Shown here: in pieces, positions 1 through 18,708 of the stretch
Layout of the letters: every line of letters starts with the position of its first letter
How positions within the stretch are numbered: position 1 is the first letter of the stretch
Origin: a virus
DNA: 21,699 nt
Virus record (IMG/VR): IMGVR_UViG_3300013372_001890
Coordinates: 1 to 21,699 of that record
Direction: 5' to 3' (one strand)
The notes under the pieces: generated by a model
Databases searched by the model: none
What the model saw: only the letters and a program-made list of their open reading frames with translations
What the model was told of the DNA's origin: nothing
Program-made: the position numbers and the translations under genes

Positions 1-389
1 GTCGTATCCCGCAGCTCTGCGGTTAGGGTGCGCGAGAATCCAGCGGCAATCTCCGCCGTAGAAGAAGTGAAGGCAATGTTGCGAGCAACGACGCTGAACG
101 ACTGCGTTCCGTCCGCCGTAGCGGTGCTGTAATGCGCCCTGATGTTTACCTGACCAATGCCAGCCGCTGTGACCACAGACGTGGCAATGCCAGCAACTGC
201 TGTAGCACTTGCCGTGCCGATAGAAATGGTTCCAATTGATGTTGTGTCAACAGAGAAAGCGATGACGCCAGTGAAGGAAGTGTCAACCGTATTCGTCGCG
301 CTGTCGTAGACAGCCGCCGAAATGGTTCGTGTTCGGGTAAGAGTTAGGTCGGCAGTGCTGCTGGAAAACTGAATGTAGTTAAACGCCAT
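1..389 (-). CDS. Ig-like (Big-type) domain virion protein, N-terminal part, open at left edge
   Basis: Reading from the ATG at 389, the frame has no stop down to base 1, giving about 129 residues of an incomplete protein beginning MAFNYIQFSSS. The sequence is rich in Thr, Ser, Ala and Val and alternates as beta strands. Residues about 25-102 resemble one bacterial Ig-like (invasin/Big-type) domain: a variable N-terminal strand, a TGVIAFSVD stretch, a GTASATAVAGIATSVV stretch and a closing FSVVARN. A second similar unit begins at about residue 103. Such domains decorate phage tails or capsids and bind weakly to cell-surface sugars. The start codon overlaps the stop of the preceding gene as TAATG, with a GTGAGG ribosome site about 11 bases upstream. 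The family assignment rests on pattern only; the full length and any C-terminal function lie outside the window. Confidence 0.6.
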   Translation of the reverse strand, partial: MAFNYIQFSSSTADLTLTRTRTISAAVYDSATNTVDTSFTGVIAFSVDTTSIGTISIGTASATAVAGIATSVVTAAGIGQVNIRAHYSTATADGTQSFSVVARNIAFTSSTAEIAAGFSRTLTAELRDT

Positions 390-1357
390 TAGTACCACGC
401 CTCACGGTATGTCGCGGTAATAAGCCCGAGAGTGTTCCCAGTGTAAGATGTTGTAAGAACGGTTGCCGCATCATCCGTAGGCGGGATAGTTCCAAAATTA
501 TAGACCGCAGTATCAATCACGTCTTGTCTAAGGGTCGTAACGTACGATCCTCCCGAAGTAGATCTAAGTCCGCGAAGAACGGTTTGGTTTTCGAAGTTAA
601 CGTACCATCGGACTTCGTTTGTCGACGTTTTCTGGATAAAGTCCAGGTTGTTTAGTTTGAGAACCTGAGAGTCCATCGTAAATGTTACGGACGCGACAGT
701 TGCAGCCGCATACGATACTGCCGAGGAATAGATTAGCTCAAACGTTGGGTAAGCAACAGCCGATCCAAGATTTGGAAATGAAGTACTGGCAGAAGATACC
801 GTGATAGAGATACTTCGCTCAGTGGCGGAATATCGATACGGCGCTTTTGCCAACAGCGTAAAGCCAACCGTTGCAGCAAATCCTTTAGAGGATGCCCCAA
901 TTGATTGGGATGACGTTAGCGTAACCGTTGGGATAGTTGCTGGACGAACAAGCATCATCATTGGAACAAACCCAGTAGAATAGTTTGCAGTGTCAATAGT
1001 AGCTTGAGAAAACGCTAACTGCCGGAACCCGTAGTCTGCTTCGTAAGTCCTAGGGATTGGGCGCATTGCGTCGAGGAAGGCTTGAACCTTATCGCCAAGG
1101 TCACCGCTTGATGTACCGAATACTCCGCAAACAATAGACAATGTGCGGGTACCAATATAAGTGTCTGCAATGTCGGCACCATCACGGAGCGCCCGTTTGT
1201 CGACGTATCCTACAAGTGGGGCTTCGTTGAATCGCGCAGACAGCACTTTATACCCACCGCGAGCAGCAGGTGTAGTAACGTCAGAAACGGCAATGCTGTT
1301 AAAGTCAATGGTTGACCCACCAGCAACCTGATAAGTAATTGGTCGATTAAAATCCAT
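389..1357 (-). CDS. Distal-tail (Dit)-like tail protein
   Basis: The 322-residue protein has an N-terminal part typical of phage distal tail (baseplate hub) proteins: after a short beta region, residues about 64-100 read as an IGTRTLSIVCGVFG strand pair followed by a LGDKVQAFLDAMRP helix. In Dit proteins this segment joins the beta-sandwich ring that attaches the baseplate or fibres to the tail end. The C-terminal half (about 180-322) is beta-rich and may be the galectin-like carbohydrate-binding or fibre-docking half. The gene starts with TAATG coupling to the adaptor-like gene upstream (GGAGG about 9 bases before the ATG) and ends with TAATG coupling to the Ig-like gene. It follows the head adaptor directly, with no tube or tape-measure gene between, which is unusual for a siphovirus. 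A different short-tail structural protein is possible. Confidence 0.5.
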   Translation of the reverse strand: MDFNRPITYQVAGGSTIDFNSIAVSDVTTPAARGGYKVLSARFNEAPLVGYVDKRALRDGADIADTYIGTRTLSIVCGVFGTSSGDLGDKVQAFLDAMRPIPRTYEADYGFRQLAFSQATIDTANYSTGFVPMMMLVRPATIPTVTLTSSQSIGASSKGFAATVGFTLLAKAPYRYSATERSISITVSSASTSFPNLGSAVAYPTFELIYSSAVSYAAATVASVTFTMDSQVLKLNNLDFIQKTSTNEVRWYVNFENQTVLRGLRSTSGGSYVTTLRQDVIDTAVYNFGTIPPTDDAATVLTTSYTGNTLGLITATYREAWY

Positions 1358-1992
1358 TATCCGAGCCTCCGCATTTTGCGGAGACGGGCTTCCTCCCGTT
1401 TGACGCGTTGCTGGTTAGACAGTGCAATCTGGTTCATGGACAAAGCTGACACGTCAGAGTTTCCAGACTGGACTTGCCACTGTTGAAACGCTACTCGGTC
1501 GGAAAGCAATCGGTTAAAAGCTTCCGCCTGAGCCCACACTCGAACAGCATTGATGGCAGAGGTATCCATGTCTGTCGTAGATGTGCTAGAAGACAATTGA
1601 ATAAACGTGCTGTATCCAAAAATGCGAAGCGTACCTGGAGAAGAAAGGGTGTAGTGCGGAGGAAAAAAGACAATGTTGTTGTGAATTTCCCATCCAGAGT
1701 TTGGACCATCTGAAGTGGTGGGTAAAACTGTTTCCTTAAATTTTCCTGCAGCATCATATGCGTCGACTCTAAATGGCCATGAAACATCCGTTGCTGCAAC
1801 AGAAAACACAGAGCCAGAAATTGGTTGAGTAAACGCTGTTGTTTGAATTGCTTCCTTTGGGTAAAATCCATTGACCCAGTCAATACCAGAGTTGATTAAA
1901 TCATCAACCTCTGAGTCTGACCAGGTTGCACCGTTTGCGTCACGAAGATCCCTGCGGACCATCGTTCGAAGACTGCTGAGTGTTTCTGCCAT
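1357..1992 (-). CDS. Head-tail adaptor/connector-like protein
   Basis: This 211-residue protein starts with a helical segment (LRTMVRRDLRD, residues 8-18) and then WSDSEVDDLINSGIDWVN (24-41). This resembles the N-terminal helices of phage adaptor proteins that dock under the portal and join head to tail. A beta-rich middle (about 50-135) and a C-terminal helix (about 145-211) ending in many Arg and Lys residues follow. The ATG at 1992 lies 53 bases inside the end of the glycosyltransferase gene; it has a weak GGAA-type site just upstream, while the next Met (codon 11) has none, so I keep the longer form. Position shortly after the capsid gene and before a tail gene supports a connector role. 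T7-type tail-tube protein A or another head-completion protein is an alternative. Confidence 0.5.
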   Translation of the reverse strand: MAETLSSLRTMVRRDLRDANGATWSDSEVDDLINSGIDWVNGFYPKEAIQTTAFTQPISGSVFSVAATDVSWPFRVDAYDAAGKFKETVLPTTSDGPNSGWEIHNNIVFFPPHYTLSSPGTLRIFGYSTFIQLSSSTSTTDMDTSAINAVRVWAQAEAFNRLLSDRVAFQQWQVQSGNSDVSALSMNQIALSNQQRVKREEARLRKMRRLG

Positions 1993-3214
1993 GCTTCCAA
2001 ATCCCCTTATGCTCTACTGCCCATTTGAAGGCATCGGCCCATTCCTTGGCCCGATCCTTATAGTCGTATTCTTTAAGCACTCGTTCTTTAGCGGCGCCTG
2101 CAAGCTGATCCCGCAGGTCCTTGCTTCTAACTAAACTCTTTACTGCGTCAAACCATTGCTGTCGACCACGGACAACGAGTCCGTCAACGCCGTGGTTGAC
2201 CATTGAGTAGGGGGCTTCTCCGTACTTGAATCCTTCGCCAATGAATGCCGCCCCAACCATTGCGTATTCCAGCCAATGGAGTTCTGATTTGCAGCGGTCA
2301 AAGTCATCCCCTCCGAGCGGCGCAATCCCAATGTCTGCGTGGCTTCCTGCCAGCGTTTGGGAGAACTGTCGGATGTTCTCAACGTAGGGATACGCCTCAT
2401 CAAAGAACGGGACAATGACGTGTTCCGTCCCTGGGTTAACGCCGATGAAGACATTCCAGAGTTCCTTACGAAGGTCCTCTATCGCTTTACCAGCGTATCC
2501 GCCTTCCCACTTTCCGCCAACACCGCTGGGGTATCCAGCGTAGTCACGCATTCGCGCCGTGCTGCCGTAATAGACCACGCGTGGTTTGCTACCACCGTGT
2601 TCTGGGCGAGTAGCATCTGTTGTATAAATCGAAGGATCAATTGCATTTCTAATCACCTGAATGTTTTCGTTGAGATGTGAATACGCATCCTTGATTGGAC
2701 CCGTGCTGACAGTAACGAGGTCAGCCCTCCGTGCCATCCGTTCAATAAGCGGTCGCTCTGCCTGAACGTCTGGGTGGTATCCATTCCACGTACGGATCTG
2801 GAAGTGATTGTCGTCCGTCTCGTAGATGACCGCTTTATTAAATGTTTCAGACTCAAAGGCTGGCCACATCCACTCAGTGATGGCGTCGCGAAACTCCATC
2901 TTGTGTGGGTGTACCTGAATGGCGGCTGGATCTTTTGTCGCCGCGCCACAGGTGTTGCACTTGGCGGAGCAGTTGTAGTAGCGGCGGAACATCACAATGT
3001 CTGCCCAGTCAATGTCGCTGGTGTCTACCGACAGCAGACCTTTTCGCATCGCCTCATCCTGGGAGAGGCCCTGTGCGCCATCCTTGGCAATGAAGTTGAC
3101 TTTGTCAATGTGCTTGACGTTGATGCCCATCTTTTTCCACTCTTCGTCATACATATGACCACGGAAATAAGCGCAAGGACCTTGTTCGGCAGTGCCCCAA
3201 ACTAATACATTCAT
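1940..3214 (-). CDS. GT-B fold glycosyltransferase (GT4-like) with a cysteine cluster
   Basis: This 424-residue protein looks like a GT-B glycosyltransferase. The C-terminal donor-binding half holds ADIGIAPL (293-300), then KSELHWLEYAMVGAAFIGE (309-327) and HGVDGLVV (341-348), the usual family pattern of an acidic, Lys-containing loop followed by a helix and a G-x-DG-L-V stretch. A central RVVYYGS (212-218) opens the second Rossmann half. The N-terminal half carries CSAKCNTCG (82-90, CxxxCxxC) followed by VHPHK (101-105), which could bind zinc and is not standard for the fold. Donor and acceptor cannot be read from sequence; virion protein or host envelope glycan are both possible. It is the first gene after the strongest promoter in the window and has a GAGGAG ribosome site before ATG 3214. 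Its last 53 bases overlap the adaptor-like gene. Confidence 0.72.
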   Translation of the reverse strand: MNVLVWGTAEQGPCAYFRGHMYDEEWKKMGINVKHIDKVNFIAKDGAQGLSQDEAMRKGLLSVDTSDIDWADIVMFRRYYNCSAKCNTCGAATKDPAAIQVHPHKMEFRDAITEWMWPAFESETFNKAVIYETDDNHFQIRTWNGYHPDVQAERPLIERMARRADLVTVSTGPIKDAYSHLNENIQVIRNAIDPSIYTTDATRPEHGGSKPRVVYYGSTARMRDYAGYPSGVGGKWEGGYAGKAIEDLRKELWNVFIGVNPGTEHVIVPFFDEAYPYVENIRQFSQTLAGSHADIGIAPLGGDDFDRCKSELHWLEYAMVGAAFIGEGFKYGEAPYSMVNHGVDGLVVRGRQQWFDAVKSLVRSKDLRDQLAGAAKERVLKEYDYKDRAKEWADAFKWAVEHKGIWKHGRNTQQSSNDGPQGSS

Positions 3215-3246
3215 CTTACTCCTCTGGGTATTTAGGCATGATTGCC

Positions 3247-3282
3247 CAGAGTTATTCTAGTAGGGTTTCCCCCCGATGTCAA
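3247..3282 (-). promoter_or_regulatory. Near-consensus sigma-70 promoter
   Basis: On the minus strand TTGACA (3282-3277) is followed after exactly 17 bases by TAGAAT (3259-3254), 6/6 and 5/6 matches to the sigma-70 consensus. Transcription would start near 3247, leaving a leader of about 33 bases that contains GAGGAG before the ATG at 3214. It sits in the only gap of about 100 bases in the window and would drive the glycosyltransferase, adaptor, Dit-like and Ig-like genes. The -35 box lies inside the loop and distal arm of the capsid-gene hairpin. Confidence 0.65.
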
Positions 3283-3295
3283 GCGACATCGGGGG
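3270..3295 (-). terminator. Hairpin after the major capsid gene (terminator or transcript-end stabiliser)
   Basis: Bases 3270-3280 pair perfectly with 3285-3295 (11 bp, five G-C pairs at the base) around a four-base loop. The hairpin lies 19 bases past the capsid stop codon. On the minus strand it is followed by GAAACCCTAC, so the U-tract of a canonical intrinsic terminator is absent. It could still pause or partly terminate transcription, or protect the 3' end of the abundant capsid message. Termination efficiency cannot be judged from sequence. Confidence 0.45.
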
Positions 3296-3314
3296 TACTC
3301 ACCTGTCTAAACGA

Positions 3315-4286
3315 TTAGACGGCGACTGTTGCCTGCGTCTTCAGGATGCGATAACGGGCGCCAGCCTCATCGAGGAGGAGGGAGCCGAAGCGCATCTTGT
3401 AGCCGACCAGTGCCTTCTGAGCGAGCGGATCAGTATGATCGCCGCCTGGAGCCACGAAGTACGACTGAAGCGTCTGCGAATCGCCAATCGTGTAAGCGTC
3501 TGGTCCGAGGAACAGAGCGTTGTACACGTTGCCGCTCGAAGCACCAGCGGTCGCGTAGACCTTGGCGTCCGAAGACACAATAAAGCGCACGCCAGCAAAC
3601 ATACCAATCTCATTCGTGAGAAGTGGCATCTGGTTGACGTACTTGTTTGCTTCGATCCAGCCGTTTACCGAAGTGTCTGACACAAGGTCATACTCCTGTG
3701 AAGGGTGGATGATGCAGCGGAACGTGCCATCAGCGAACTGTGGAACGTTGCTGCCCTTGAGCCGAGCAACCATCTGCTTCACGAACGCTCCCGTCAACAC
3801 ACCAGCAGCGGCAACAGCCGAGTTAGCAGTGTTTGCGGTAAGCGTCGTTGCGCCAGTGGCGCCAAAGATTGCGCTCGTCTTTGCGGTGCTGTGAATCTCG
3901 TCGCGGACAAGAACGTCCATCGAGCGGGTCGCATTGTAAGCAATGCGCTCTGCAGCGATAGAAATCAGGTCATGCGGCGAGTCGATCTGAGCAAGGTCAG
4001 AGACTGCAACCGTCGCACCGAACTGTGCAGCGGTGAAGTACTCGGACGAAATGGTCAGAGCGCCATCGGTTGGAGCGGTACCTTCCGTAAGCGCCGTGGT
4101 GTTGACCGCAAGGTCAGCATAACGTGCGTAACGAAGGGTATTCGTTCCCTTAATGAAGCGAGCAGGGACGTAAAGCCCTGGCATCGCATGAACGGCTCGT
4201 GCTCGCAGTTCCTCTTGCGCTCGTGCAGAAACAAGTTCCTGTACGAGATCAGAAAAACCTGAGGTTGCCGTAGTGGTGGTAGCCAT
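3315..4286 (-). CDS. Major capsid protein, HK97 fold (N4 gp56-like family)
   Basis: This 323-residue protein has the features of the N4 gp56-type branch of HK97-fold capsid proteins. There is a short N-terminal arm, then a region about 44-85 corresponding to the E-loop and strands, and a long spine-type helix region (about 105-135, with DLISIAAERIAYN). The signature FRCIIHPSQEYDLVSD then leads into a WIEANKYVN helix and EIGMFAGVRFIVS. The C-terminus has a DPLAQKALVGYKMRFG segment and a closing beta strand. No N-terminal propeptide or protease gene is evident, and a separate scaffold gene lies 16 bases upstream, so assembly probably uses the scaffold rather than a fused delta domain. An AAAGGAG ribosome site precedes ATG 4286. 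It is followed by a strong hairpin and a new promoter. Confidence 0.85.
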   Translation of the reverse strand: MATTTTATSGFSDLVQELVSARAQEELRARAVHAMPGLYVPARFIKGTNTLRYARYADLAVNTTALTEGTAPTDGALTISSEYFTAAQFGATVAVSDLAQIDSPHDLISIAAERIAYNATRSMDVLVRDEIHSTAKTSAIFGATGATTLTANTANSAVAAAGVLTGAFVKQMVARLKGSNVPQFADGTFRCIIHPSQEYDLVSDTSVNGWIEANKYVNQMPLLTNEIGMFAGVRFIVSSDAKVYATAGASSGNVYNALFLGPDAYTIGDSQTLQSYFVAPGGDHTDPLAQKALVGYKMRFGSLLLDEAGARYRILKTQATVAV

Positions 4287-4302
4287 CTACATTCTCCTTT
4301 GT

Positions 4303-4860
4303 TTATCTACTAAATGGATTGCCAAGAGCCTTCAATCGATCACTGATTTCAGCACTCGTTGACGTTGATTTCTCCACTACTGGCTCTCGTCGTGGATTAT
4401 TTGGATCAATTCGAGGCTCCGACTCAACCTCAGAAACGCGGGAAGCAAGGAACTTTTCAAAGGCGGCCGCTCGGCCCTCTTCATCCAAGTTCACAGTGTC
4501 CTGGCGAAACTGTGCGTAGAGTGGGTGCTGCCTCGATAGCCGCTCCTGACGAGCTTCATCCTGCTGTTTAGCAAGAGTCTCCTCAAGCGTCTTGATCTTA
4601 AGTTGAGCCTTGTCGTATTCCGAAAGGTTCTTCTCTTCGATCTCAGCCTTCCACCTCTTCAGGTCATCGGCTTCCTTACGGATAGCATCGAGTTCCTTCT
4701 TGGTGGCGGTCAGGGCTTGGTCCTTACCAGCCAGCCGCTTCTTATAAGTGGCGACATCTTCACCCTCAGCCTGAGTGAGCGTGTCCTCAGCAGGGGCCGT
4801 AGCCTCTGCTGGAACTTGAGCTGACTCTACTGGAGCTTGTGCCACGACTTCATCCGGCAT
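4303..4860 (-). CDS. Capsid scaffolding protein
   Basis: A 185-residue, highly charged protein placed directly before the major capsid gene, the normal place for a scaffold. The N-terminal 35 residues are Ala, Glu and Pro rich. Residues about 38-110 form a long predicted coiled coil (heptad-like Leu/Ile and Ala positions among Lys and Glu), and a flexible Pro/Ser segment leads to a basic C-terminal end (RLKALGNPFSR), which in scaffold proteins often contacts the coat protein. I choose ATG 4860 because AGGAG sits 7 bases upstream; a GTG at 4884 in frame would add eight residues but has no clear ribosome site and lies in a hairpin. In cells it would fill the procapsid and leave or be degraded on packaging. 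No protease domain is seen. Confidence 0.75.
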   Translation of the reverse strand: MPDEVVAQAPVESAQVPAEATAPAEDTLTQAEGEDVATYKKRLAGKDQALTATKKELDAIRKEADDLKRWKAEIEEKNLSEYDKAQLKIKTLEETLAKQQDEARQERLSRQHPLYAQFRQDTVNLDEEGRAAAFEKFLASRVSEVESEPRIDPNNPRREPVVEKSTSTSAEISDRLKALGNPFSR

Positions 4861-4882
4861 TACTGTACTCCTATCTATTACC

Positions 4883-4899
4883 ACCCAGATTTTCTGGGT
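4883..4899 (-). other. Small hairpin between the giant 1753-aa gene and the scaffold gene
   Basis: Bases 4883-4889 pair with 4893-4899 (7 bp, three-base loop) right at the TAA stop of the 1753-residue gene. There is no following U-tract on the minus strand. It could separate translation of the rare giant protein from the abundant scaffold and capsid, or stabilise a processed message. It is short enough to be chance. Confidence 0.3.
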
Positions 4900-7800
4900 T
4901 TAATTCTTTCCTTGCAGAATGTCTGTAATGTTCAGACTATCTGGGGCCAAATCCGCGACCGGATTCTGTGTGAATATCTGGTTTGCAGCATTGAATCCAA
5001 GTCGCCACGACCCAGGTAGCGAAGCAGATACAACCTGATTGAATCCCTCTTGTGGGAAACGTCCAACATCAAACCCTTCTCCAGCCATACCCTTGGCCAC
5101 GCCCAACTTTCGCACCGTTGAGGAGAGACCAAACCCAATGTTGTCTGGGGTGTATGGAAGAAGCCAGTTAATAAGAATCCAGGCTTCTGGATTGTCTTGA
5201 ATCCATGAGCTAAACTCTGGATCGTATTGCGTTGCTGCAACCGTAGCCTCTGCCGTAATCCTCAGTGCCTCAACGCCAAGGAACGGGCGTGTCCCGCCAA
5301 GCGCCTTAGCAAATGGGGTTGCAACAAGCAATCGAGTAAACTCTGGGATAACCTTTCCTACCATGTAGGAGAGTGGATAAAGCGCAAGCAGTGGGTGGTT
5401 AAGACTTCGCTCAATCCACGGACGGTTAGGGTCGAAGTAAATTGCCCTCTGCGCACGCTTGCCCTCGTCAGCAGCCGCCTTACGGAATCCTGCTACAATG
5501 TTCTGATACGACTGAACTTCTGCGTCAGTCTTTCCTACTGTCTTATACATAAAGTCAGGAGGGGCCATCATATTTTCAATTGAATCGTATTGGTTAGTTG
5601 TCTTTTTAAATCCAAGCTTATAATAAAATGCCTTAGAGCTATCTGTTACATCATGGACATACATCCCGATACCCTCAGCCTTAGCTGCTCGATGGGCATC
5701 AGCAAGCAGTGCAGACCCAGTCCCGCCACCTTTCTGGAACGCGCCAAGGTGTGTGACGGCAATGTTATCTAGAATGTCTTCTCCAGTAAGTCCAGCACGA
5801 AGCTTCTCTGGGACAAACAAGGCAAAGCCAGAGATGTTCCCATCAGCGTCATATGCGACCTTCCACTTCGCGGCCTTGCGAACCTTTGGGTCCCACATGA
5901 AGTACCTATTCAAACCGTCCTTTAGAACTGAGAATGCAGTCCCTGCCTGTTCGCTCTGCTTAAGAGTCTTGATGTACTCACGGCCTTGGTCAGGGAACAC
6001 CTGGAATCCATTTTTAAAGTTTCTAATATCTATGGTACCGTTTTTTAGGTTACCCTCAATATCATCAAAAATGTCAGATATATCTTCTTCATTAAAACCA
6101 ATTTTTCCGTAGGAGTTTTTTGATTTTTCAACATAAAATTTAGCATCTGGCTTGCCAGAATAGAACTCTTCTGGGTTTGGATTTCTATTAAGATAATCTT
6201 TCTTTTTTGCAGGATTGTTTTTAACAGCATTCCAGTCTGGAAGTTCTTCTTCTAAGGCAAAAAGTCTTTCTTCCTCTACCCTCTTTGCGGCAGTTTCCCA
6301 GGTGTCGTCATAGTTAAACATGTGACGAGCAATTGCACGACCTTTTGGTGTTGCAAGCATTTCTTGTGAGATAGATTTTGACCCGCCATAATAATCTTCT
6401 ATAGCCTGAATTGCTGATACCTCATCACGTTTGTAGCTTGAAAGTGGCCTTGGTCCAGTGGCCTTAGTCCCAACAGACCTAGCCCTATCAACCGTTGCAG
6501 ACATATGCTTGTTCAAAAGTCCTTGAATGTCAGAAACAGCCCCCTGCTCATCCCACCATTTTCCATCAAAACCCGAGCTTCCGCCAGTCTTTGTTTTAAC
6601 TTCTCCAAAATCCTTAAGAACTCTTGCCGTTGCATCAGCAACGTCTTTCTTTGTTGGATTTTTCCCAAGTTCCTTTATTGCCTTTGCAAGCATCGCATCT
6701 TGGTCTGCACTTTTCTTTTCAAAGAAAAGTGTTCTAGCATCATCTATCGAAACATTTTCTTTAACTGCCATTTTTAGTATGCCTTTGTTATAATTGTCTG
6801 CACCATACTGAAATAGCTCTTCTAGTGTTTTACCTTCCTTTTTAAAAGCTTCTTGCTCAAAAGCTTCTTGCTCGGCAGTAAGATTATAATCGTCAACAAC
6901 ATCATCAACAACATTATCAGCAGAATCAAAATCAGTAAAGTCGTCAAGGAGCTGCTTCAGGTCCTCTGGGTCATCCAGCTCTAGAATTTCACCGCCAGCG
7001 TCAACAAACCTTTTTTCGTTGACAGCAACTTCTGTTGCAACAACTCCACGGCTAGTAAACCCTCGCATCATTGCAACATCGACACCAGCATCCATCAGCC
7101 TTTGTGCTGACACTGGGTCAGTTCGGCCAATAAAGTCAAGACCAATAATATGCATAACGTCTTCTGGTTCTGACGTTCCAAAGAACCTCTCTAGGTTTGG
7201 AAGCTCTTCTGGAAGGTGCTCGGCAAATACGCGATTAGCTCGAAGCGAAGCACCGCGAGAAATCATTGCCTGCATGGTTCGTTTCTTTCGATCAGTTACC
7301 GCAAGGATGCCGTTCTTCATGGAAAGACGTACGTCCTTAAACTCGGCGTTTCCTCGGGCAAAACTTCCAATGGCCTCCCAGAACGTAGGAGCCTTAGTCC
7401 CCATCTGTTGAGCAGTCTGATTTCCAGCAACCATGAAGACCGTCTGTGCATCGCCAACTTCTCGGACAGCGGCGTACTCTCCAATGATTGCACGAGTTCG
7501 AATATCATTCTTTGTAAGTCCAGCAATACGTTCTTCACGTACGCCAGCGCCAGTGGTAAACCTAAAGAACACTGGCTCAATGTTTTCTTGGATGTATTGG
7601 AATTGTGGAGCAAGTGTACCGAATCGGCTTGCTGGGTAAAACCTGTCGGTAACGATTGCGATCTTAGGGAACTGCATCTTTATCCGCGACGTAAGCGCAG
7701 GCATGATACCAATGTCATCAATATGCCCAGCATACGCCCTCATCAACCCATTGAAGACTTGTGTCCACGCCTCCTCTACTGGAACTCCAGCCTTTGCGGC

Positions 7801-10161
7801 AATGCGCGCAAGAGCTTCTTTTCCAAGAGCAGCGTTGATTGCCTTGGCAAGAGGATTACCTGGCCCCATGACTGCCTCGTAGGAAAGACCTCGAGGCAAT
7901 GTCTTATATTGGTCCGCCAAGTCATTCATGACATTCCACACAGCACGAGACTCTGACTGGTTTAGCCCAACGGCGGTTGTCTCTTCCACAAATCGGTTGG
8001 TAGCCTTTGCCTGAATCAACGATCCATAGCGAGGGCTAAAGGCGTAGCGAAGCATCTCTTGAAGCGGATTTCGCTTGTAGGTGAGAAGGTCTCCGCCAAG
8101 GTTTTGCGGGTTGGTAAACGCAGTATCAACAAGATCCGCGTATGGTGAGTATGACTTAGCGTGGTAGTATCGGCCATACTTGTCCTGCAGCGTTGACCAC
8201 TTCTGGATGACCCCATCCTCTGGTGCAATGCCTAGACGATAGCCAACCTTTTCCGCCTGGACCCAGTACTGCTTTGCTTCATCGCTAAGTTCCATAAGCT
8301 CATCAGCCTGAATATCAACAGCAAACGTCTTGCTGTTATCGTTAAGGAAGTTTCTCATATCATCCTTAAGTTCTTCTAGCTGCTTTTCGTCAAGAGCATC
8401 AAGATCAATACGACCAAATCGACCATAGAGCTCGTCGTACTGGTCAGTACTTTGCCGAATTGCGGCCTTCAATTCTTTTCCACTAAGTCCCTTAATCGTT
8501 GTATCGATCTCACTCGCTCGTGCGCGTGAGAGCGTTCTCTGGGAGATAAGTGTAATACGAGACCCAATGCCAGTCATTGTCTGTCGGACATTGGCGATCC
8601 CCTGGGCAAGCTTGCCGTAGGCTGGTGCGCGAACAAACTCGAGGAAGTCAAGCGCGTCGCTGACGTTTCCAGCGTTGATTGCAGGAAGGATTAGTTCGTC
8701 AAAGAACTGGTCAGCCTGCACTGTGCTTCGCCCCAATGCATACCCAAGGCCGTTGCGAACAAAGGCACGAGCTGCGTTTACGTCAGTTGTTAGCGGAAGT
8801 AGTTCCTGCTTACCAGAGATAAGAAGTTTTGCCCCAGCAACAACAACGCTATTTCCGTGGAGTCGACCCTGGATTGCAAGCGCCTCTTCAGCGGACTGTG
8901 CGCTATCGATAGCAAGAGCTCGAAGCTGTAGATTTGCCTGAATAGAATCTTTAATTTCTTTAATCTCTTCAGGGAAATTAATTGCCCTGCTGACAGAATT
9001 AATAAGTTTTCCTCGTGAGTTATTTGGAATCATCCCGGCATCAAGTAATGGGGTAACAGCAGCAAGTGCTCCCTTTTCGTCACCAGCTTCAACAAATGGG
9101 CGGACTGTTTCTATAAGAGAGTTAACAAAATCGTCGGCACTACCTTGCACAGCAAGCGCCGCCTGGTCCTCAATGAGCGCAGCAGCCCCACCCTTGGCCG
9201 CTTTGCCCATGGTAAAGGAGGTAAGTTCGGAAGCGGTCTTAATAACGGTGTCGGCTTCTCCAGGAGATGACCTAGCAAGTGCGGCAACAGCAGCCCTAAT
9301 GTTTCTTGGCTTATATGCCATCTCGAGGATGGTGTGCGCTCGGCCAGCAATGGCGCTTGCGAATGCCTTAGAAGTACCGCTCAACGTTCCGCCGATAGCG
9401 TTGTACACCTGACCAACTGGCTGCCATAGGCGCATGAACTCTGAGTCTTTGGCTGCAAGAAGCGCCCCAGTCTTTACTGCCTTAATCAATCCTCCTGCTC
9501 GAGCAGCGCCAGAGGCAATTGCTCCACCAGGAATGTATGTAATTGGGTCAGTAATAAGACCAAGGACAACGTCGCGGACAATGTCCGGTTTTGCTCCAAA
9601 CGTTCGTCCTTCGCTGTAGATAGTTTGGGCAATCTCGTCGACCGTCGCACCAGCATCAACCATAGCTCGGATTGAGCCGATGTCGTAGTAATCTTTGACG
9701 CTCTGGAAATTAGATCCAGACTGATCCTGCAAGAGTTTCTCTGCGGCGGACTTGGCAATAATATCCTTTTGGACAAATCGAGAAGGAGCCGAGATGACAT
9801 CTAGTGCGGCGCCAGGGATTCCAGACACCACATCGCCAACACTTGGACCAGCCTCAAATGGTCGAATCGATCCGACAACATTGCCAACGGCACCAACTGC
9901 ACCACCGACTGTCTCAACGGCTCCCTTGAGGAGTCCGCCAACACCAGGCACCGATCCGATAAGTCCAAGAAATCCTTGGCCAAGACCCTCTAAAGACTCA
10001 CCAAACGTATCTGGTTTAGTAATATTTACCGAAGCACGACCTGGTCCAGCACCAAAGCGAGACGACCCAGTAGATCCGCTACCCTGGGACGGGAGTGAGA
10101 TGTCGCTATCAAGAGCGGTATATCCACCAGTTCCTGGCTTAACAGAAAAGATACTTGGCAT
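4900..10161 (-). CDS. Giant (1753-aa) putative injected virion protein with GNAT acetyltransferase domain
   Basis: I do not recognise the whole protein. A Gly/Ser-rich start leads to a hydrophobic glycine-zipper-like segment (about 58-99, GGAVGAVGNVVG pattern) and then long helical regions to about 1065. Residues about 1067-1390 are very acidic and charged and are encoded by AT-rich DNA. Residues about 1405-1525 form a GNAT domain: a GNISGFALFVPE strand pair (from about 1442), an IAVTHLGAFQ strand (about 1467-1476), acetyl-CoA loop GGGTGSALL (1478-1486) and a terminal AFYYKLGF (about 1511-1518). A hydrophobic helical region follows (about 1588-1650). The size, the mosaic build and the location between portal and scaffold fit the 'polyvalent protein' class of phage proteins thought to be delivered into the cell with the DNA. 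The substrate of the acetyltransferase is unknown. The start is TAATG-coupled to the 928-aa gene, with a strong GGGGGAGG site. Confidence 0.6.
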   Translation of the reverse strand: MPSIFSVKPGTGGYTALDSDISLPSQGSGSTGSSRFGAGPGRASVNITKPDTFGESLEGLGQGFLGLIGSVPGVGGLLKGAVETVGGAVGAVGNVVGSIRPFEAGPSVGDVVSGIPGAALDVISAPSRFVQKDIIAKSAAEKLLQDQSGSNFQSVKDYYDIGSIRAMVDAGATVDEIAQTIYSEGRTFGAKPDIVRDVVLGLITDPITYIPGGAIASGAARAGGLIKAVKTGALLAAKDSEFMRLWQPVGQVYNAIGGTLSGTSKAFASAIAGRAHTILEMAYKPRNIRAAVAALARSSPGEADTVIKTASELTSFTMGKAAKGGAAALIEDQAALAVQGSADDFVNSLIETVRPFVEAGDEKGALAAVTPLLDAGMIPNNSRGKLINSVSRAINFPEEIKEIKDSIQANLQLRALAIDSAQSAEEALAIQGRLHGNSVVVAGAKLLISGKQELLPLTTDVNAARAFVRNGLGYALGRSTVQADQFFDELILPAINAGNVSDALDFLEFVRAPAYGKLAQGIANVRQTMTGIGSRITLISQRTLSRARASEIDTTIKGLSGKELKAAIRQSTDQYDELYGRFGRIDLDALDEKQLEELKDDMRNFLNDNSKTFAVDIQADELMELSDEAKQYWVQAEKVGYRLGIAPEDGVIQKWSTLQDKYGRYYHAKSYSPYADLVDTAFTNPQNLGGDLLTYKRNPLQEMLRYAFSPRYGSLIQAKATNRFVEETTAVGLNQSESRAVWNVMNDLADQYKTLPRGLSYEAVMGPGNPLAKAINAALGKEALARIAAKAGVPVEEAWTQVFNGLMRAYAGHIDDIGIMPALTSRIKMQFPKIAIVTDRFYPASRFGTLAPQFQYIQENIEPVFFRFTTGAGVREERIAGLTKNDIRTRAIIGEYAAVREVGDAQTVFMVAGNQTAQQMGTKAPTFWEAIGSFARGNAEFKDVRLSMKNGILAVTDRKKRTMQAMISRGASLRANRVFAEHLPEELPNLERFFGTSEPEDVMHIIGLDFIGRTDPVSAQRLMDAGVDVAMMRGFTSRGVVATEVAVNEKRFVDAGGEILELDDPEDLKQLLDDFTDFDSADNVVDDVVDDYNLTAEQEAFEQEAFKKEGKTLEELFQYGADNYNKGILKMAVKENVSIDDARTLFFEKKSADQDAMLAKAIKELGKNPTKKDVADATARVLKDFGEVKTKTGGSSGFDGKWWDEQGAVSDIQGLLNKHMSATVDRARSVGTKATGPRPLSSYKRDEVSAIQAIEDYYGGSKSISQEMLATPKGRAIARHMFNYDDTWETAAKRVEEERLFALEEELPDWNAVKNNPAKKKDYLNRNPNPEEFYSGKPDAKFYVEKSKNSYGKIGFNEEDISDIFDDIEGNLKNGTIDIRNFKNGFQVFPDQGREYIKTLKQSEQAGTAFSVLKDGLNRYFMWDPKVRKAAKWKVAYDADGNISGFALFVPEKLRAGLTGEDILDNIAVTHLGAFQKGGGTGSALLADAHRAAKAEGIGMYVHDVTDSSKAFYYKLGFKKTTNQYDSIENMMAPPDFMYKTVGKTDAEVQSYQNIVAGFRKAAADEGKRAQRAIYFDPNRPWIERSLNHPLLALYPLSYMVGKVIPEFTRLLVATPFAKALGGTRPFLGVEALRITAEATVAATQYDPEFSSWIQDNPEAWILINWLLPYTPDNIGFGLSSTVRKLGVAKGMAGEGFDVGRFPQEGFNQVVSASLPGSWRLGFNAANQIFTQNPVADLAPDSLNITDILQGKN
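5990..6950 (-). other. AT-rich insert inside the giant protein gene
   Basis: Within the 1753-residue gene this stretch is much poorer in GC than its flanks. By direct count lines 6061-6120, 6121-6180 and 6181-6240 hold 16, 22 and 18 G or C of 60, while line 8461-8520 has 28 of 60. It encodes about residues 1070-1390, a Lys/Glu/Asp-rich helical region immediately before the GNAT domain. The reading frame stays open across both borders. The contrast suggests a domain acquired from another source, although biased codon use in a charged linker would also lower GC. The borders are estimated by eye. Confidence 0.5.
6844..6873 (-). repeat. Perfect 15-bp tandem duplication
   Basis: The 15-base unit at 6844-6858 is repeated exactly at 6859-6873, giving two copies of the pentapeptide EQEAF in the giant protein. 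It keeps the frame and lies near the upstream edge of the AT-rich block, just after an acidic DVVDDVVDDY run. A recent replication-slippage event is the simplest explanation. Confidence 0.85.
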
Positions 10162-12947
10162 TAACGACCTCCCCCGCCCTTACCAGCAACAATTGTTGGA
10201 ACTGACGAATTGATTGGAGTAACTGACCCATTTAGAGGAGCTATCTCTCCAGCCCGGAATGCGTTAAATGCCGCCTGGGCCGCTGGGGTAACAGATGCAG
10301 CCTTAACAGAAGTCATAACTGGTCCGTACCCTTCTACTCCAACAATGTTTACCGCTGGAGAAACCCCGCCGCTACTCATCCTTGGAGTGATAGTAGAAGC
10401 TGGCCTGAGTCCTGGAGAAATTGTTACGCTTGATGGGCCAGGAGCGGTAATCTTATTGAACATTCCAACAGCTCCTTGGCCAATTACATTTCCAATTGCA
10501 CCAGCTACACCTATTGGATTTGCAAGCGTTGCAAGACCACGGAAAACAAATCCAAGGTCAAATTCAGTTTTGTTGCCAGCACCAGTTGGTGTAGCCTGAT
10601 TAATCCCATTGTACGATATAGGCTGCTGCGGCTGAACCGCACCGCCAGTCTGATAATTAGTGCCAAACGATCCCCTTGTATCAATTGGTCTAATGGTTGC
10701 TAGCTGTACAAATTCTTCTTTCTTCTTTTGAACTTTTGCTGCCGCAAGTTCTGCATTCATCATGGCAATTCGTACGCCAGGATCTTGGCTGACACTTGCC
10801 ATGTTTGATAACTCCGTTTGAGTTTTAGTTGTTTTTTCAATAAGTGCAAGTGTTTCAACAGCTAGTGCGCTATTTGCTGGAACGGTATCAAGAATTGACT
10901 GAAGAATAATGTTGGTACCTTGAATTCCAACTAACGCAGGGTTGTCCGAGTTAACCCTTGCGTACGGGTTTACCATAAGCGACTGAGCCTTAGTCGAAGC
11001 GTTTGGATTTACAAGGTCTGACAATACAGCTTCTGTTCCAGAAATAGTTGACTTAATCTGGTATACCTCTTGATTGTTAGGAAGGACTGTCTTCTTTGAT
11101 TCACGGGAAATAATGCTCTTCCCGTCAGCGGCAAGCATCAGTTTTCCAATATCCAAAGGTGGCGTCTTATAAATAATACCATCCTTAGAGGCATACATTG
11201 GACCTACTGAAGTTTCAATCTTATAGCCCCAAAGCCCCATGTCAGAGGTGTCTGGCTGCCCAGCATATGATCCGTAGATTGGAACTCCCTGATATTGCGC
11301 TGCGTAGTTGTTTCCAGCGGCGTCCTGTTCAAGTCGAGTAATATAACCAGCTCCTGGTGCGGGAGATTTTATGTCAGTAATCAATGGTGGTAGGCTAGGA
11401 TCTGATGGATAGCTAATTTGCTTTGTCCCATTAAGGAAACCAGCATCATATTCTACTGTATCAATAACATTTGAAAACTCAGCAATGCTGTACCTATTGT
11501 CACCAGTTGTGGTAGTATCTGGAAGTTGAGGAAGGAACCCAGACGATACAAGTGAAGGAATTACCTCATCCATAAGCGTACTTGGGATTTGAGTAATTTT
11601 TTCACCACGAAGTGCAGCTTCATAAAGTCCTGCTTCGTTATCGATCTTTACCTGGATTTCATCTAATGCTGGATTGGTAATCGTTTCAAGTCCATCTCCA
11701 AACATTGTAGTAGTTTTTCCACGGAGGAACATTGCCCACTGGGTCATCACAATCTTTTCATTTCCAGGAATATTACCTGCGGCAGTCATGAAGATTGCCT
11801 TTTTCTGCACGCCAGTAATGTATTCGTCGTACGACGTGTTCTCACCAGAAACCTTTTTGGTAGCAGTAACTGTTGCTGAGGCGGTAAGCGCCTCCTCGGA
11901 GTTACCCTTACCTTGGCTGTTAAGCACGTTGACGTATCCCTTTGAAGCTCGAGCTGCCTCATCGAGAGCCACTTGCACCTCAATGCGTGTGCTCTCTGGC
12001 TGTGATTCAAGCCAAGCAGTAAGACCAGCAGGGCTGGCCTTCTGAAGATCAGCAAATCCAAACGTAGCAGAAGATGTATCTACGCCAAGTGTTGATCCAA
12101 TTGCCTTTGCAAACGCATTAAGTGTTCCCATCGCGGAGTCGTATGATTCCTTGCGTTGCAACAGGAAAGATGCTGCGGCTGCATTTGATGCATCAACCTC
12201 TTGCTTCTTGATGAGATCCTTAGTGTTTTGGATTTCAGTTGTTATATTAGAATAAAATGTTCCACCAATACCTGCTGTTTCAAGTTTGGTTTTCCACCCT
12301 TCATACCACGAAAGAAGTTCTTTATTTGCGGCAATAACCTTTGAGGCCTTTTTCCCATTGGCCTTATCAACCATGTCCTGAACCAGAACTAGTTGGTATT
12401 TGTACAAATTGCTATTAACATCAAATTTAACATCGTTGTAGGTATTAGCGTCATCGACAACAGCAGAAAGTGCTTTCTGAGACAGCGAGTCATACTCTTC
12501 CTCTGTGATGTTTGACTTTACAAGGTCATTGTATGCATATGTTACATAGTTCTTTACAACTTGCTCTAGGTCAGTGCCATACTTTCCAGCACCCTCTCCC
12601 TTGAGGAATGCGACGTACTCTTCAAAATTTGCCCCAGTGTTTGCAGTAAATGATTCGCTAAGACTTTTGTTGGTTTTATCTGTCTGAAAACCTTTTGCAT
12701 TTGCCAACAGATTATCATAATACGCAATCTCAGCTTGGCTAAGATTTCCCTCAGCAAGTCGTCCGTTAACAAAATTTTGAAGATCTGAGAAATTGGTATT
12801 TTCGCCACCATAAAGACTGCCATCGTAGAATGAGTTAAACAGTGCGCTCTGTTCGAGGTTCCTATTCTGTGTAGCAAGACTTCTAATAAAGGAACTTAAA
12901 TTTTGCTGCCCAGACGTTGATCGTCCGAACCTACCAATCCTTGCCAT
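10161..12947 (-). CDS. Large (928-aa) putative internal virion/ejection protein
   Basis: No family is recognised. The N-terminal two thirds (about 1-500) look mainly helical and charged, with coiled-coil-like stretches, for example around KKQEVDASNAAAASFLLQRKE. The middle (about 500-650) is beta-like and Gly/Pro rich, followed by more helix. Near the C-terminus residues 801-831 form a Gly/Ala/Ile hydrophobic segment containing GVAGAIGNVIGQGAVG, similar in flavour to the one near the N-terminus of the 1753-residue protein. The last 80 residues are Ser, Pro and Gly rich. The gene is TAATG-coupled at both ends, with a GGAGGT site inside the end of the portal gene, so it is probably made together with portal and the giant GNAT protein. 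Podovirus-type ejection proteins or a minor head protein are the best guesses. No enzyme motif is seen. Confidence 0.45.
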   Translation of the reverse strand: MARIGRFGRSTSGQQNLSSFIRSLATQNRNLEQSALFNSFYDGSLYGGENTNFSDLQNFVNGRLAEGNLSQAEIAYYDNLLANAKGFQTDKTNKSLSESFTANTGANFEEYVAFLKGEGAGKYGTDLEQVVKNYVTYAYNDLVKSNITEEEYDSLSQKALSAVVDDANTYNDVKFDVNSNLYKYQLVLVQDMVDKANGKKASKVIAANKELLSWYEGWKTKLETAGIGGTFYSNITTEIQNTKDLIKKQEVDASNAAAASFLLQRKESYDSAMGTLNAFAKAIGSTLGVDTSSATFGFADLQKASPAGLTAWLESQPESTRIEVQVALDEAARASKGYVNVLNSQGKGNSEEALTASATVTATKKVSGENTSYDEYITGVQKKAIFMTAAGNIPGNEKIVMTQWAMFLRGKTTTMFGDGLETITNPALDEIQVKIDNEAGLYEAALRGEKITQIPSTLMDEVIPSLVSSGFLPQLPDTTTTGDNRYSIAEFSNVIDTVEYDAGFLNGTKQISYPSDPSLPPLITDIKSPAPGAGYITRLEQDAAGNNYAAQYQGVPIYGSYAGQPDTSDMGLWGYKIETSVGPMYASKDGIIYKTPPLDIGKLMLAADGKSIISRESKKTVLPNNQEVYQIKSTISGTEAVLSDLVNPNASTKAQSLMVNPYARVNSDNPALVGIQGTNIILQSILDTVPANSALAVETLALIEKTTKTQTELSNMASVSQDPGVRIAMMNAELAAAKVQKKKEEFVQLATIRPIDTRGSFGTNYQTGGAVQPQQPISYNGINQATPTGAGNKTEFDLGFVFRGLATLANPIGVAGAIGNVIGQGAVGMFNKITAPGPSSVTISPGLRPASTITPRMSSGGVSPAVNIVGVEGYGPVMTSVKAASVTPAAQAAFNAFRAGEIAPLNGSVTPINSSVPTIVAGKGGGGR

Positions 12948-15247
12948 TAAACGTTACCTCCTGCTGGTGGCATTAGTTGTTCACCATTTGCCAATGTTTG
13001 ATCGATTGGTTGCCCAGATGAAAGAGGGGCTCCGTTTGGTGCTAATGCATTGGATGGAACTGCACCCGCTGGTGGCTGTGCTTGATTCTCAAGCTGGTTA
13101 AGCGATTGAGATCCAGACGGCTGCTGTTGAAGCATCCGTGCAGTATTTTCCACGCTTGCCTGCTGCTGCGCAAACTGCTCCTGAGCCGCCTGTTGCTGCT
13201 GCAACTGCATCTGCTGGAACATCTGAACAAGGTTTGCCATAGCCATAACAGCGGATGGATTGAGCGTTGCATCGGTCTGTTCGTCTCGAATGACTCCCAT
13301 CTCGCCCTCTGGGTCCTCGACACCAACGCGATCCATTGCGCGGCTTGCGCTCCAGATACGGTTCTGTACAAGGTTGATAGCGGTCTGAGCAAGCTCGAGT
13401 GTGTCTCGAGGAGTTAGCTCAGGTGGGGTAATCTCAATTCGGTAGTTGCCGCCAAAGATGACGCCAACCTTCTTATCCTTTGTCTCCCAGATCTTGGCGC
13501 ACAAACGCCATACCTGCTTGATCCATGAATAGAGTAGCTTGCGCTTTGGAGCAATGCGTGCTTCATAGTTAGCCACGAGCGACGCGATGGCGCGGGATGA
13601 CCCGAGCACGCCCGAAGGAGCAAGCCCGAGGAGGAGGTCATTGAGTCCCGTCACCACCGCAATCTCACGGTCGATACGCTTGTTGTAGTCTTCAATCTGG
13701 AACTGAGGAATAAACGGCGAGATTGAGCGAATTTCATTGCCAGGTCCAGGTGCTGCCATCTTTCCAGGCTTTGGGATAGCATTGGCCGGAATCTCATCTG
13801 GTGCCTCTGCGCCAACCAACTGGAACATCTGACCACCAATAACTGAGTGGATCATCTGTGCCTGGTTAGTAATACGTTCGTCCTTCTCCCTTAGGAGTTG
13901 CTCAACGTCATACAGTTCCGGTTTGCCGTAAGGGCTTCCAGGAACCTTGGCGTTGGGGAGAAGGATGTATGGTAGGTCCCCTCGGAACTCTGCATGCTTT
14001 GTATTCTTTACCAGTGTGTTGCCGACAAATATGGCGTTATAAACTGTTGGAGCCTTGCCTGCAACTCCAGGAACCTTGTACCAGTAGTCGTATACTTCAA
14101 CCTGCTGCATCTCGTACGGTGTTTCGCGTCGAAGTGGGTTGCGCTCAAATTGGTTTAGGTAAACGTTGGCAATTGGATCATCATGGGTTGAGGCGGTGTA
14201 GTTGTACCACTTGCCACCCTGCTGTGTTGGGACAACTCGAATGCCATAATCCTCTTCAACTGCCTGCGGAGACATGCCGTAGCAGTAAAGAGCCCAGTCT
14301 ACTCGGCTAAAGTCAGACACGCCAAATCCAAGGTAGAGGTTTTCTGGTGACTCTACAATGCGTACCTTTGGCATCTGCTTTTCTGCATCCCAATAAATCT
14401 TAGCTGCAGTGTATCCGTAAAGCGCCTTAATAAAGCATGCGTCTTCAAGAACAAGGTCAAACTCATTCTCTTCAGCCCAGCGAAAAAACAGCCTTTCTGC
14501 GTTAGCTGCCTTAGCGCGTGAATCATTATCCTGTCCCTCTGGGACGTAGTTAATCACTGGCATCACTGCCTGCAACGAAGCTGGAATGTTGACGTACGCA
14601 GCATGGACGTTGACTGAAACGTGGGCTCGACCAGCGGTTCGAGCTGTTGCGTCATCTGCCCAATGGTCTGCTCCACCAAGCGTCACAATGTTTGGATGGT
14701 AGAGGTTATCAAAACGTCGGAAGATTGCACGAAGTCGGTTCTGCTCTGGCTCCGTTGTCTGCTTGCGCATAAGCACTTCACCAAATAGTTTGAACCCAGG
14801 GTCTTCTTCTGGAATAACGTTCTGAATCTCAAGAGAAGCCTTAAGCATTTTAATGGATGCAGTCTGAGATTCACTCAACTTACTAACATCAAGTTTTGCG
14901 TAATTCTTTTTAATTGGGGTGCCCTTTGACCCAGTTGAATAATTAAGAATTGTAGGAGAAGTTACAATTTCAGGAGAAGTTGCGGATACGCCCTGGCTCG
15001 CGGGGGCAGGGGCCCTCTCCGTCGCTCCTGGGCCTGTTTTAGGGGCTTTTAGGGACGATACTAGAGGGCTAGACTTAGGCATCAGGGTATCAACGCGCTG
15101 TCCCTGTCCAATTTTCTTTGCCTTGTCAAGGGCTGTCCCAATAGAACGGATCTGTTCAGGCGTGGCGATATCAGGGTCAGTAGTATACTGCCCTGGAATT
15201 GCTCGCGTTCCCTGGAACGCCTTTGGGATTCCTCGAACCTTAGCCAT
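12947..15247 (-). CDS. Portal protein
   Basis: At 766 residues this is a long portal. A low-complexity N-terminal extension (about 1-130) precedes the core. Typical portal pieces are a two-helix start (QNRLRAIFRRFDNLY), a wing region with VNVHAAYVNIPASLQAVMP, and a clip and stem region with LYDVEQLLREKDERITNQ and RIDREIAVVTGLNDLLLG. A long helix ahead of the crown carries SSRAIASLVANYEARIAPKR. From about residue 675 it is rich in Gln (LQQQQAA) and later Pro, Asn and Gly, a tail likely to sit inside the capsid as barrel or linker. It forms the dodecameric DNA gate, binds the large terminase during packaging and later the adaptor. The start is TAATG-coupled to the terminase stop with GGAGGAAG upstream, and its own stop couples the 928-residue gene in the same way. 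Confidence 0.88.
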   Translation of the reverse strand: MAKVRGIPKAFQGTRAIPGQYTTDPDIATPEQIRSIGTALDKAKKIGQGQRVDTLMPKSSPLVSSLKAPKTGPGATERAPAPASQGVSATSPEIVTSPTILNYSTGSKGTPIKKNYAKLDVSKLSESQTASIKMLKASLEIQNVIPEEDPGFKLFGEVLMRKQTTEPEQNRLRAIFRRFDNLYHPNIVTLGGADHWADDATARTAGRAHVSVNVHAAYVNIPASLQAVMPVINYVPEGQDNDSRAKAANAERLFFRWAEENEFDLVLEDACFIKALYGYTAAKIYWDAEKQMPKVRIVESPENLYLGFGVSDFSRVDWALYCYGMSPQAVEEDYGIRVVPTQQGGKWYNYTASTHDDPIANVYLNQFERNPLRRETPYEMQQVEVYDYWYKVPGVAGKAPTVYNAIFVGNTLVKNTKHAEFRGDLPYILLPNAKVPGSPYGKPELYDVEQLLREKDERITNQAQMIHSVIGGQMFQLVGAEAPDEIPANAIPKPGKMAAPGPGNEIRSISPFIPQFQIEDYNKRIDREIAVVTGLNDLLLGLAPSGVLGSSRAIASLVANYEARIAPKRKLLYSWIKQVWRLCAKIWETKDKKVGVIFGGNYRIEITPPELTPRDTLELAQTAINLVQNRIWSASRAMDRVGVEDPEGEMGVIRDEQTDATLNPSAVMAMANLVQMFQQMQLQQQQAAQEQFAQQQASVENTARMLQQQPSGSQSLNQLENQAQPPAGAVPSNALAPNGAPLSSGQPIDQTLANGEQLMPPAGGNV

Positions 15248-16743: not shown

Positions 16744-17044
16744 GAGTCCCCTTGTTTCTTGCGCTGATTGATTGAGCCTTTGACTTTGCGTCAGCCTTGC
16801 TGCTCGCTCCCCACGCCTGTAGGCTTAGAAGTAAACGGGTTGGTCGACCCTTAGCATCGCGCTCTGGTCCTGGCATGCCACCCATTCGCGCAAGGAATGA
16901 TGCGCGTCGTGGGTTGTCGCCTCGCTTTACTGGAGCCTTAAGCGTCCCGCCAGTCTGGGCTTTATATGACGCTCGACCTTTGGCATTCAATCCGCCAGCA
17001 GGGTTCTTCCCTTCACTGCGCTGCCATGCCGCGCTTCGTGCCAT
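16733..17044 (-). CDS. Small basic conserved phage protein (DUF6321-like)
   Basis: A 103-residue, very basic protein (pI high by eye) with a recognisable two-block pattern known from many uncultured and aquatic phages: GKNPAGGLNAKGRASYK (12-28), then GGTLKAPV (32-39), RRASFLARMGGMPGP (46-60) and KGRPTRLLLSLQAW (65-78). I recall this as DUF6321 but cannot check it. Function is unknown; a nucleic-acid-binding or packaging-related role fits its charge and its place directly before the large terminase. ATG 17044 is TAATG-coupled to the glycosyltransferase, with GAGGTGAAG upstream; an in-frame upstream Met at 17083 lies well inside that gene and lacks a ribosome site. The last 30 residues are Ser, Lys and Ala rich and probably disordered. 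Confidence 0.65.
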   Translation of the reverse strand: MARSAAWQRSEGKNPAGGLNAKGRASYKAQTGGTLKAPVKRGDNPRRASFLARMGGMPGPERDAKGRPTRLLLSLQAWGASSKADAKSKAQSISARNKGTRAR

Positions 17045-18488: not shown

Positions 18489-18700
18489 CAGTCTCCCTTA
18501 TAGCCAAACGCTACGTCGTTAGGGTTTAGCCAACGAAGAACAACTGGTAGAATGGCAGCAATGCCAGCAGCGAAGACGCTCTTAATGGCGTCTCCATTGA
18601 GGTCAAATGCCGTACCTCCGAGTGCGAGGAATTGCGCCACACAAGCGGCAGCAAATGATCGACCCCACGATGCGAGCAGTGCCTTCTGTTCCTTATTCAT
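18488..18700 (-). CDS. Holin-like small membrane protein
   Basis: A 70-residue protein with a short charged N-terminus (MNKEQK), a hydrophobic helix at about 13-30 (FAAACVAQFLALGG), a polar turn with DLNGD, a second hydrophobic helix at about 40-56 (SVFAAGIAAILPVVL) and a polar tail. Two membrane helices, small size and position right after a peptidoglycan-hydrolase-type gene fit a class II holin that opens the inner membrane at lysis. ATG 18700 has AGGAGAT 4-5 bases upstream, beginning in the stop of the peptidase gene; a longer form from 18730 lies inside that gene and has no such site. Holins vary greatly in sequence, so the call rests on topology and context. Confidence 0.7.
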   Translation of the reverse strand: MNKEQKALLASWGRSFAAACVAQFLALGGTAFDLNGDAIKSVFAAGIAAILPVVLRWLNPNDVAFGYKGD

Positions 18701-18708
18701 AGTATCTC

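Follow-up and report, generated by a model that had tools for sequence, protein, structure and literature searches.

The 70 bases that follow the major capsid protein gene of the phage studied here could well be a gene-boundary cassette, in which a fold for processing or protecting the 3′ end of the capsid message is combined with a promoter for the next gene, a reading to which we give an even chance. The DNA analyzed, called the window hereafter, is the whole IMG/VR virus record IMGVR_UViG_3300013372_001890 (positions 1–21,699). An outline of the proposed process is as follows: messages reading out of the capsid gene would fold into a first hairpin (H1) and a second, S-turn-bearing hairpin (H2), and this fold would most likely serve not as a U-tract terminator but to mark and protect the 3′ end of the capsid message, whether as a site of processing or by blocking exonucleases, and an RNase III-like enzyme might cut it. 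The same loop and distal arm, read as DNA, would also supply the −35 box for a host sigma-70-type promoter, from which a separate message for the glycosyltransferase-like gene and the genes behind it would start near 3247. What stays constant among relatives is a robust RNA fold that follows the capsid stop codon directly and lacks a U-tract; the promoter lies in its 3′ half in four of six groups.

The minus strand of the window carries phage structural genes, namely those for a terminase, a portal, a 1753-aa protein, the capsid, the glycosyltransferase-like protein and an adaptor-like protein, and the element lies in the 100-base gap between the capsid stop codon and the glycosyltransferase start codon (Table 1). 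The capsid protein matches 29 records, including Streptomyces, Bacillus, Bacteroides, gut and spring phages, at no more than 34.3% identity, and the glycosyltransferase matches an Arthrobacter phage (21.4%) and a Manatee Spring record (25.6%). The terminase has no match among 50,697 phage records, and a search of genome contigs with the capsid alignment gave no relative; an actinobacterial host is a guess. The 1753-aa protein, encoded at 4900–10161 (−) between the portal-side genes and the capsid gene, has a single sub-threshold match, to GNAT acetyltransferase (residues 1435–1520, E 0.00088, below the Pfam cut-off). At 4883–4899 a small hairpin, ACCCAGATTTTCTGGGT, occupies the gap between two other structural genes, followed on the plus strand by a T-rich tail.

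Table 1. Features at the boundary between the capsid and glycosyltransferase-like genes (window coordinates).
Feature	Position	Strand	Basis	Detail
Major capsid protein gene, 323 aa	3315..4286	−	PHROG 1357 major head protein, E 1e-41; Pfam Phage_capsid_4, E 3.4e-10	Upstream of the element
H1 hairpin over capsid stop codon	3305..3320	−	Fold	GTCTAA (3320–3315) pairs with TTAGAC (3310–3305); stop codon TAA at 3317–3315
Outer helix around H2	3264..3303	−	Fold	GGT (3303–3301) with ACC (3266–3264)
GAGTA, 5′ strand of putative S-turn (sarcin-ricin-like) internal loop	3296..3300	−	Flank motif in 18/59 spacers	AGTA in 11/11
H2 main hairpin, 11-bp stem	3270..3295	−	Sequence and fold	CCCCCGATGTC (3295–3285), loop GCTT (3284–3281), GACATCGGGGG (3280–3270)
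GAAA, 3′ strand of the same putative loop	3266..3269	−	GAA in 11/11 group A sequences	Also in promoter spacer
−35 box TTGACA	3277..3282	−	Invariant in 11/11 group A sequences	
−10 box TAGAAT	3254..3259	−	TAnnnT invariant in 11/11	Amid variable sequence
Predicted transcription start, G	3247	−	Spacing only	Seventh base past −10; G in 11/11 group A sequences
Second hairpin, CTCTGGG (3251–3245) / CCCAGAG (3228–3222)	3222..3251	−	Fold	Spans predicted start, touches Shine-Dalgarno
Shine-Dalgarno AGGAG of glycosyltransferase gene	3219..3223	−	Sequence	
Glycosyltransferase-like gene, 424 aa	1940..3214	−	PHROG 7162 glycosyltransferase, E 1.3e-19; Pfam Glyco_trans_1_2, E 4.3e-6	Downstream of promoter

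Relatives were collected by scanning IMG/VR with the capsid query (76 loci) and the glycosyltransferase query (56 loci), many loci being one contig retrieved through both proteins. The 133 sequences examined yielded 127 usable ones and 59 distinct capsid-to-glycosyltransferase spacers; six were left out, two having no recognized downstream gene (L050, which was re-used in alignment A3, and L061) and four having no capsid C-terminus (L064, L068, L069 and L075). The spacers are referred to as groups A to F, a lettering of our own, and the window belongs to group A (11 distinct sequences, alignment A2). In the capsid tree, A, D, E and F each form one side of a branch, and B and C interleave.

It is nearly certain that an RNA fold exists at this place. 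Every one of the 59 spacers has a G+C-rich stem of 10–16 bp in the same position, and since this hairpin persists in the groups that lack the promoter, the stem has a task of its own. RNA of positions 3190–3325 folds with the H2 stem at z = −4.8, and none of 200 shuffles folds as well; such predictions ignore ribosomes, which must cover H1 on reaching the stop codon. Across group A, 98.6% of cells pair, two of 19 pairs are compensatory (22–60 and 35–48), and none of 500 shuffles reaches the covariation score. The H2 stem contributes one compensatory pair (A-U to G-C) among the 11 sequences; one of the three pairs of the outer helix changes on both sides (G-C to A-U, 3/11 sequences), with 90.9% of cells paired in the A2 register, for which the window itself needs a one-base shift. 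The five pairs counted for H1 are formed in all cells of the 11 sequences, one of them alternating between U-A and U-G. In group D, 7 of 24 pairs are compensatory (whole-structure covariation score 0.281 against 0.172 in shuffles, reached by 0 of 500). Here pairing between the stop-codon hairpin's loop and bases just past the main stem makes a pseudoknot. Its five pairs are formed in all 14 distinct rows and three of them change on both sides. The group C sequences are compatible with this pseudoknot, four of the five pairs being formed in all six distinct rows and none covarying.

An inverted repeat over a −35 box could also be a binding site for a repressor or an activator on DNA, a dyad at this position being a common location of operators. 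However, the stem sequence is not conserved between relatives and its changes are compensatory. Because the stems change completely from one relative to another and use G-U pairs, which are frequent in group D (for example in 5/14 and 4/14 sequences at single pairs), the fold should be one of RNA; covariation largely refutes an operator, which is in our judgment highly improbable. An Rfam search with the window and five loci gave nothing above the gathering cut-off (best E 4 for the window element and 0.71 for L067), and assignment to a known RNA family was rejected.

In the group A fold, AGUA faces GAA between two helices, which is the consensus of the sarcin-ricin, bulged-G or S-turn motif. 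As far as can be read from sequence, H2 would therefore carry an S-turn loop. AGUA stands opposite GAA in 12 of the 59 spacers in this strand order and in six in the swapped order (GAAA before and GAGTA after the stem), the latter all in group B (L027, L031, L036, L083, L087 and L088). The bases just outside the AGTA and GAA flanks vary within group A, and the distant L121 has GAGUA/GAAA flanks like those of group A around an unrelated stem. In ten genomes, S-turn flanks occur on 6 of 1576 hairpins, all six being the capsid hairpin, and in three shuffles on 2, 0 and 1 of about 1100 hairpins each. What differs from the sarcin-ricin motif is the setting, as here the motif would act as a hinge in a 3′ hairpin of a phage message and would occur in both strand orders. 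A literature search on the sarcin-ricin consensus returned no match.

The closest precedent for the fold, by analogy, would be RNase III-type processing as at the R1.1 site of phage T7. A stem of 12 bp capped by a tetraloop is a substrate of RNase III, and R1.1 and other T7 sites are imperfect stems between phage genes, cleavage of which matures and protects the mRNA (PMC8708148). Compared with an R1.1-type yardstick (a stem of about 12 bp or more, a tetraloop and imperfections), the window has an 11-bp stem, an internal loop and a 3-bp outer helix, and relatives have 10–16 bp. In contrast to R1.1, the element has an S-turn-like internal loop and an arm that also belongs to a host-type promoter, and its cleavage is putative. 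No paper on hairpins of phage capsid genes in connection with mRNA stability and RNase III turned up in a literature search.

Does the fold end transcription? The bases after the H2 stem are GAAACCCT, without a U-tract, and none of the 59 spacers has one, the next eight bases containing only 0–2 T. Ten related genomes have 11 hairpins followed by at least six T in eight bases, against 3, 3 and 1 in three shuffles, which suggests that U-tracts are used by these phages at other sites and not at this one. A canonical intrinsic terminator was rejected on this ground. The first-pass annotation had called the hairpin terminator-like, supposing that it could lower read-through from the capsid gene and that a cruciform might interfere. 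The term holds for the stem alone; the supposed lowering of read-through by a terminator loses its support with the missing U-tracts, and the cruciform is likewise unsupported, as the turnover of stem sequences and the G-U pairs point to RNA. What survives of its interpretation is the promoter, the overlap with the hairpin and the gene boundary.

The main rival to processing or protection is a U-less intrinsic ("I-shaped") terminator, which would release part of the polymerases, with the overlapping promoter restarting transcription. The element is indeed a G+C-rich hairpin without a U-tract downstream of a gene, strong stems stand in the same place in 59/59 spacers, and they adjoin a first hairpin at the stop codon; according to a computed survey (PMC8355165), hairpin clusters can terminate without poly-U. 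As an I-shaped hairpin without a U-tract cut GFP expression in a mycobacterial reporter (PMC5335608), some termination at H2 is possible, and restart has a parallel in bacterial polymerase that can remain on DNA after termination and start again at nearby promoters (PMC11347151). Nevertheless, the U-tract missing in 59/59 spacers is present on hairpins elsewhere in these phages, M. bovis polymerase reportedly does not terminate without it (cited in PMC5335608), and the conserved S-turn flanks or pseudoknot are not needed by a terminator. The I-shaped terminators known from actinobacteria and the phiC31 early region share with the element the G+C-rich hairpin without poly-U, but here an S-turn or a pseudoknot is conserved, the −35 box lies inside the stem and termination is putative. 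We consider termination with restart somewhat unlikely. No description of a phage promoter lying inside a terminator hairpin emerged from a literature search judged by titles and the beginnings of abstracts.

The promoter is likely to be real, as judged from its conservation. TTGACA and TAGAAT, 17 bases apart and hence within the 16–18 bp spacing of sigma-70-type promoters, score 11/12 and make the best of 14 promoter-like sites in positions 1–20000 of the window. The first-pass annotation had placed both hexamers and the spacer correctly on the minus strand and had described the −35 box as the loop and distal arm of the hairpin; the physical overlap is borne out by conservation in relatives, but it is limited to six bases, two at the end of the loop and four at the start of the distal arm. 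Its separate restart for the next gene fares similarly: a gene boundary with its own expression remains the best reading, and the start near 3247 is a prediction. A site scoring 11/12 is not rare by chance, at least one arising somewhere in 27 of 120 shuffled windows; on the minus strand of the 100-nt intergenic stretch it arises in 4 of 5000 shuffles, the stretch having been picked post hoc. Because the site is unremarkable window-wide and the spacer was chosen after the fact, we rely on the relatives.

In group A all six −35 columns are invariant. Within columns 58–75 of alignment A2 only 61, 65, 66 and 70 are invariant, and the last three are the T, the A and the final T of the −10 box, a placement with P ~0.005 if four invariant columns fell at random there. 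As the group A stem varies at only one pair, TTGACA could be held in part by the stem. Throughout the 59 spacers a −10 box is in register in 38 (the accepted hexamers having been chosen after seeing them), and 37 of these have either a −35-like hexamer (a match of at least 3/6, found in 30) or the TG of an extended −10 (found in nine): 28 have a −35 without TG, seven TG without a −35, two have both, and one, L045 of group C, has neither. The tie between TG and a missing −35 has a Fisher p of 2e-5 with relatedness ignored, the independent gains being perhaps three. Groups C and D have stems of unrelated sequence, and their −35-like hexamers TTGACT, TTGGCT, TAGACT, TGGACT, TTGAGG and CTGAGG again occupy loop and distal-arm positions, with 17 or 18 bases between them and a downstream TAGAAT or TAAAAT (CAAAAT and CAGAAT in L051 and L107). 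Group B and L055 lack a −35 and have TG one base ahead of the −10. Since the −10 box of groups B to D sits inside a conserved block, AGAATCAACG, its conservation alone proves less there.

It is conceivable that the resemblance to a promoter arose by accident in a palindromic stem and that only the RNA hairpin matters. The frequency of 11/12 sites in shuffled windows fits such an accident, as do the imperfect −35 matches of group D, in which the second base is altered in 7 of 14 rows, and the 21 relatives (groups E and F) that keep the stem without this promoter. Against it, TAnnnT is conserved, the spacing is right in groups with unrelated stems, and TG appears where the −35 is missing; we therefore think a coincidence improbable. 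In 14 related records TTGACA-N16/18-TAnnnT occurs 41 times and the reversed pattern six times. Several such promoters cluster in the first 4 kb of three related records, L145 (1–2200), L147 (700–1850) and L153 (380–3700), partly between genes, possibly marking an early region.

If the promoter fires as predicted, its message would begin inside the second hairpin of Table 1. This anatomy recalls the leaders of T4 genes e, soc, 49 and I-TevI, which have a promoter within the 5′ strand of an RNA structure and use it as a switch (PMC3014915): read-through RNA would hide the Shine-Dalgarno sequence and start codon of the glycosyltransferase gene in the hairpin, the 5′ arm of which lies in the −10-to-start region, and promoter-started RNA lacking that arm would be translated. 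In L004, L011, L014 and L015 the start codon is predicted to be unpaired at 0.01–0.06 in read-through and 0.97–1.00 in promoter-started RNA, and in the window it rises from 0.56 to 0.90. However, accessibility of the Shine-Dalgarno sequence rises only in L005, L013 and L018 of 11 sequences folded (0.42 to 0.37 in the window), and the start codon is less open in promoter-started RNA of L007–L009 and L018. The switch mostly failed and is unlikely: the anatomy fits, the Shine-Dalgarno accessibilities do not. In contrast to the T4 leaders, most relatives show no predicted freeing of the ribosome site, and the promoter is host-like, not T4-late.

The leader has further features. A seven-codon reading frame at 3239–3216 (−), ATG CCT AAA TAC CCA GAG GAG TAA, starts eight bases past the predicted start and ends just before the glycosyltransferase start; similar frames occur in some relatives, but L008 has no ATG, for which reason a conserved upstream reading frame was dropped. 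In groups B, C and D the leader past the −10 is a conserved stretch of 80–115 nt, CAACGTAGAGGCAC...AGGAGCC... (alignment A6; L043:6004–6116, L067:6028–6137, L031:6000–6110 and relatives). Longer A6 leaders add GCGAG-CCTCTATG-CTCGC, with a loop complementary to the leader 5′ TAGAGGC, a possible long-range or kissing pairing.

Relatives differ not only in the sequence but also in the kind of the fold. L031, with the swapped S-turn and an extended −10, and L037, with the pseudoknot and a −35, are 96.3% identical in the 3′ halves of their capsid genes and 90.7% at the glycosyltransferase starts but only 51.7% from the stop codon to the −10, a stretch in which L031 and L036 are identical. In addition, the two gene trees disagree: by its glycosyltransferase the window falls with group B and by its capsid with group A, and in the glycosyltransferase tree D joins F. 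On account of these identities and discordant trees, the stretch behaves as a recombination boundary at which folds replace each other, and the tree conflict suggests frequent recombination at this junction. A tentative extension is that, in a family of uncultured phages, the part of the spacer that ends at the −10 works as an interchangeable regulatory cassette, in which three unrelated folds (the S-turn hairpin, the strand-swapped S-turn hairpin and the pseudoknot closing over a hairpin) have been swapped by recombination at the same place, each retaining a promoter that is built with its own distal strand or saved by an extended −10. Such 3′-end structures of phage messages, doubling as promoters, would form a class not described before.

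If the gene-boundary reading is true, one 70-base stretch would serve two readers, polymerase on the DNA and a nuclease or ribosome on the RNA. Relatives would resolve this conflict differently, either placing the −35 box in the loop and arm or trading it for a TG before the −10, and would thus provide a set of natural variants in which the joint evolution of a promoter and an RNA structure can be tested. Both the S-turn form and the pseudoknot form are candidate new structured RNAs, and the arrangement would explain how neighboring genes could give much capsid and little of the next product without a classical terminator.
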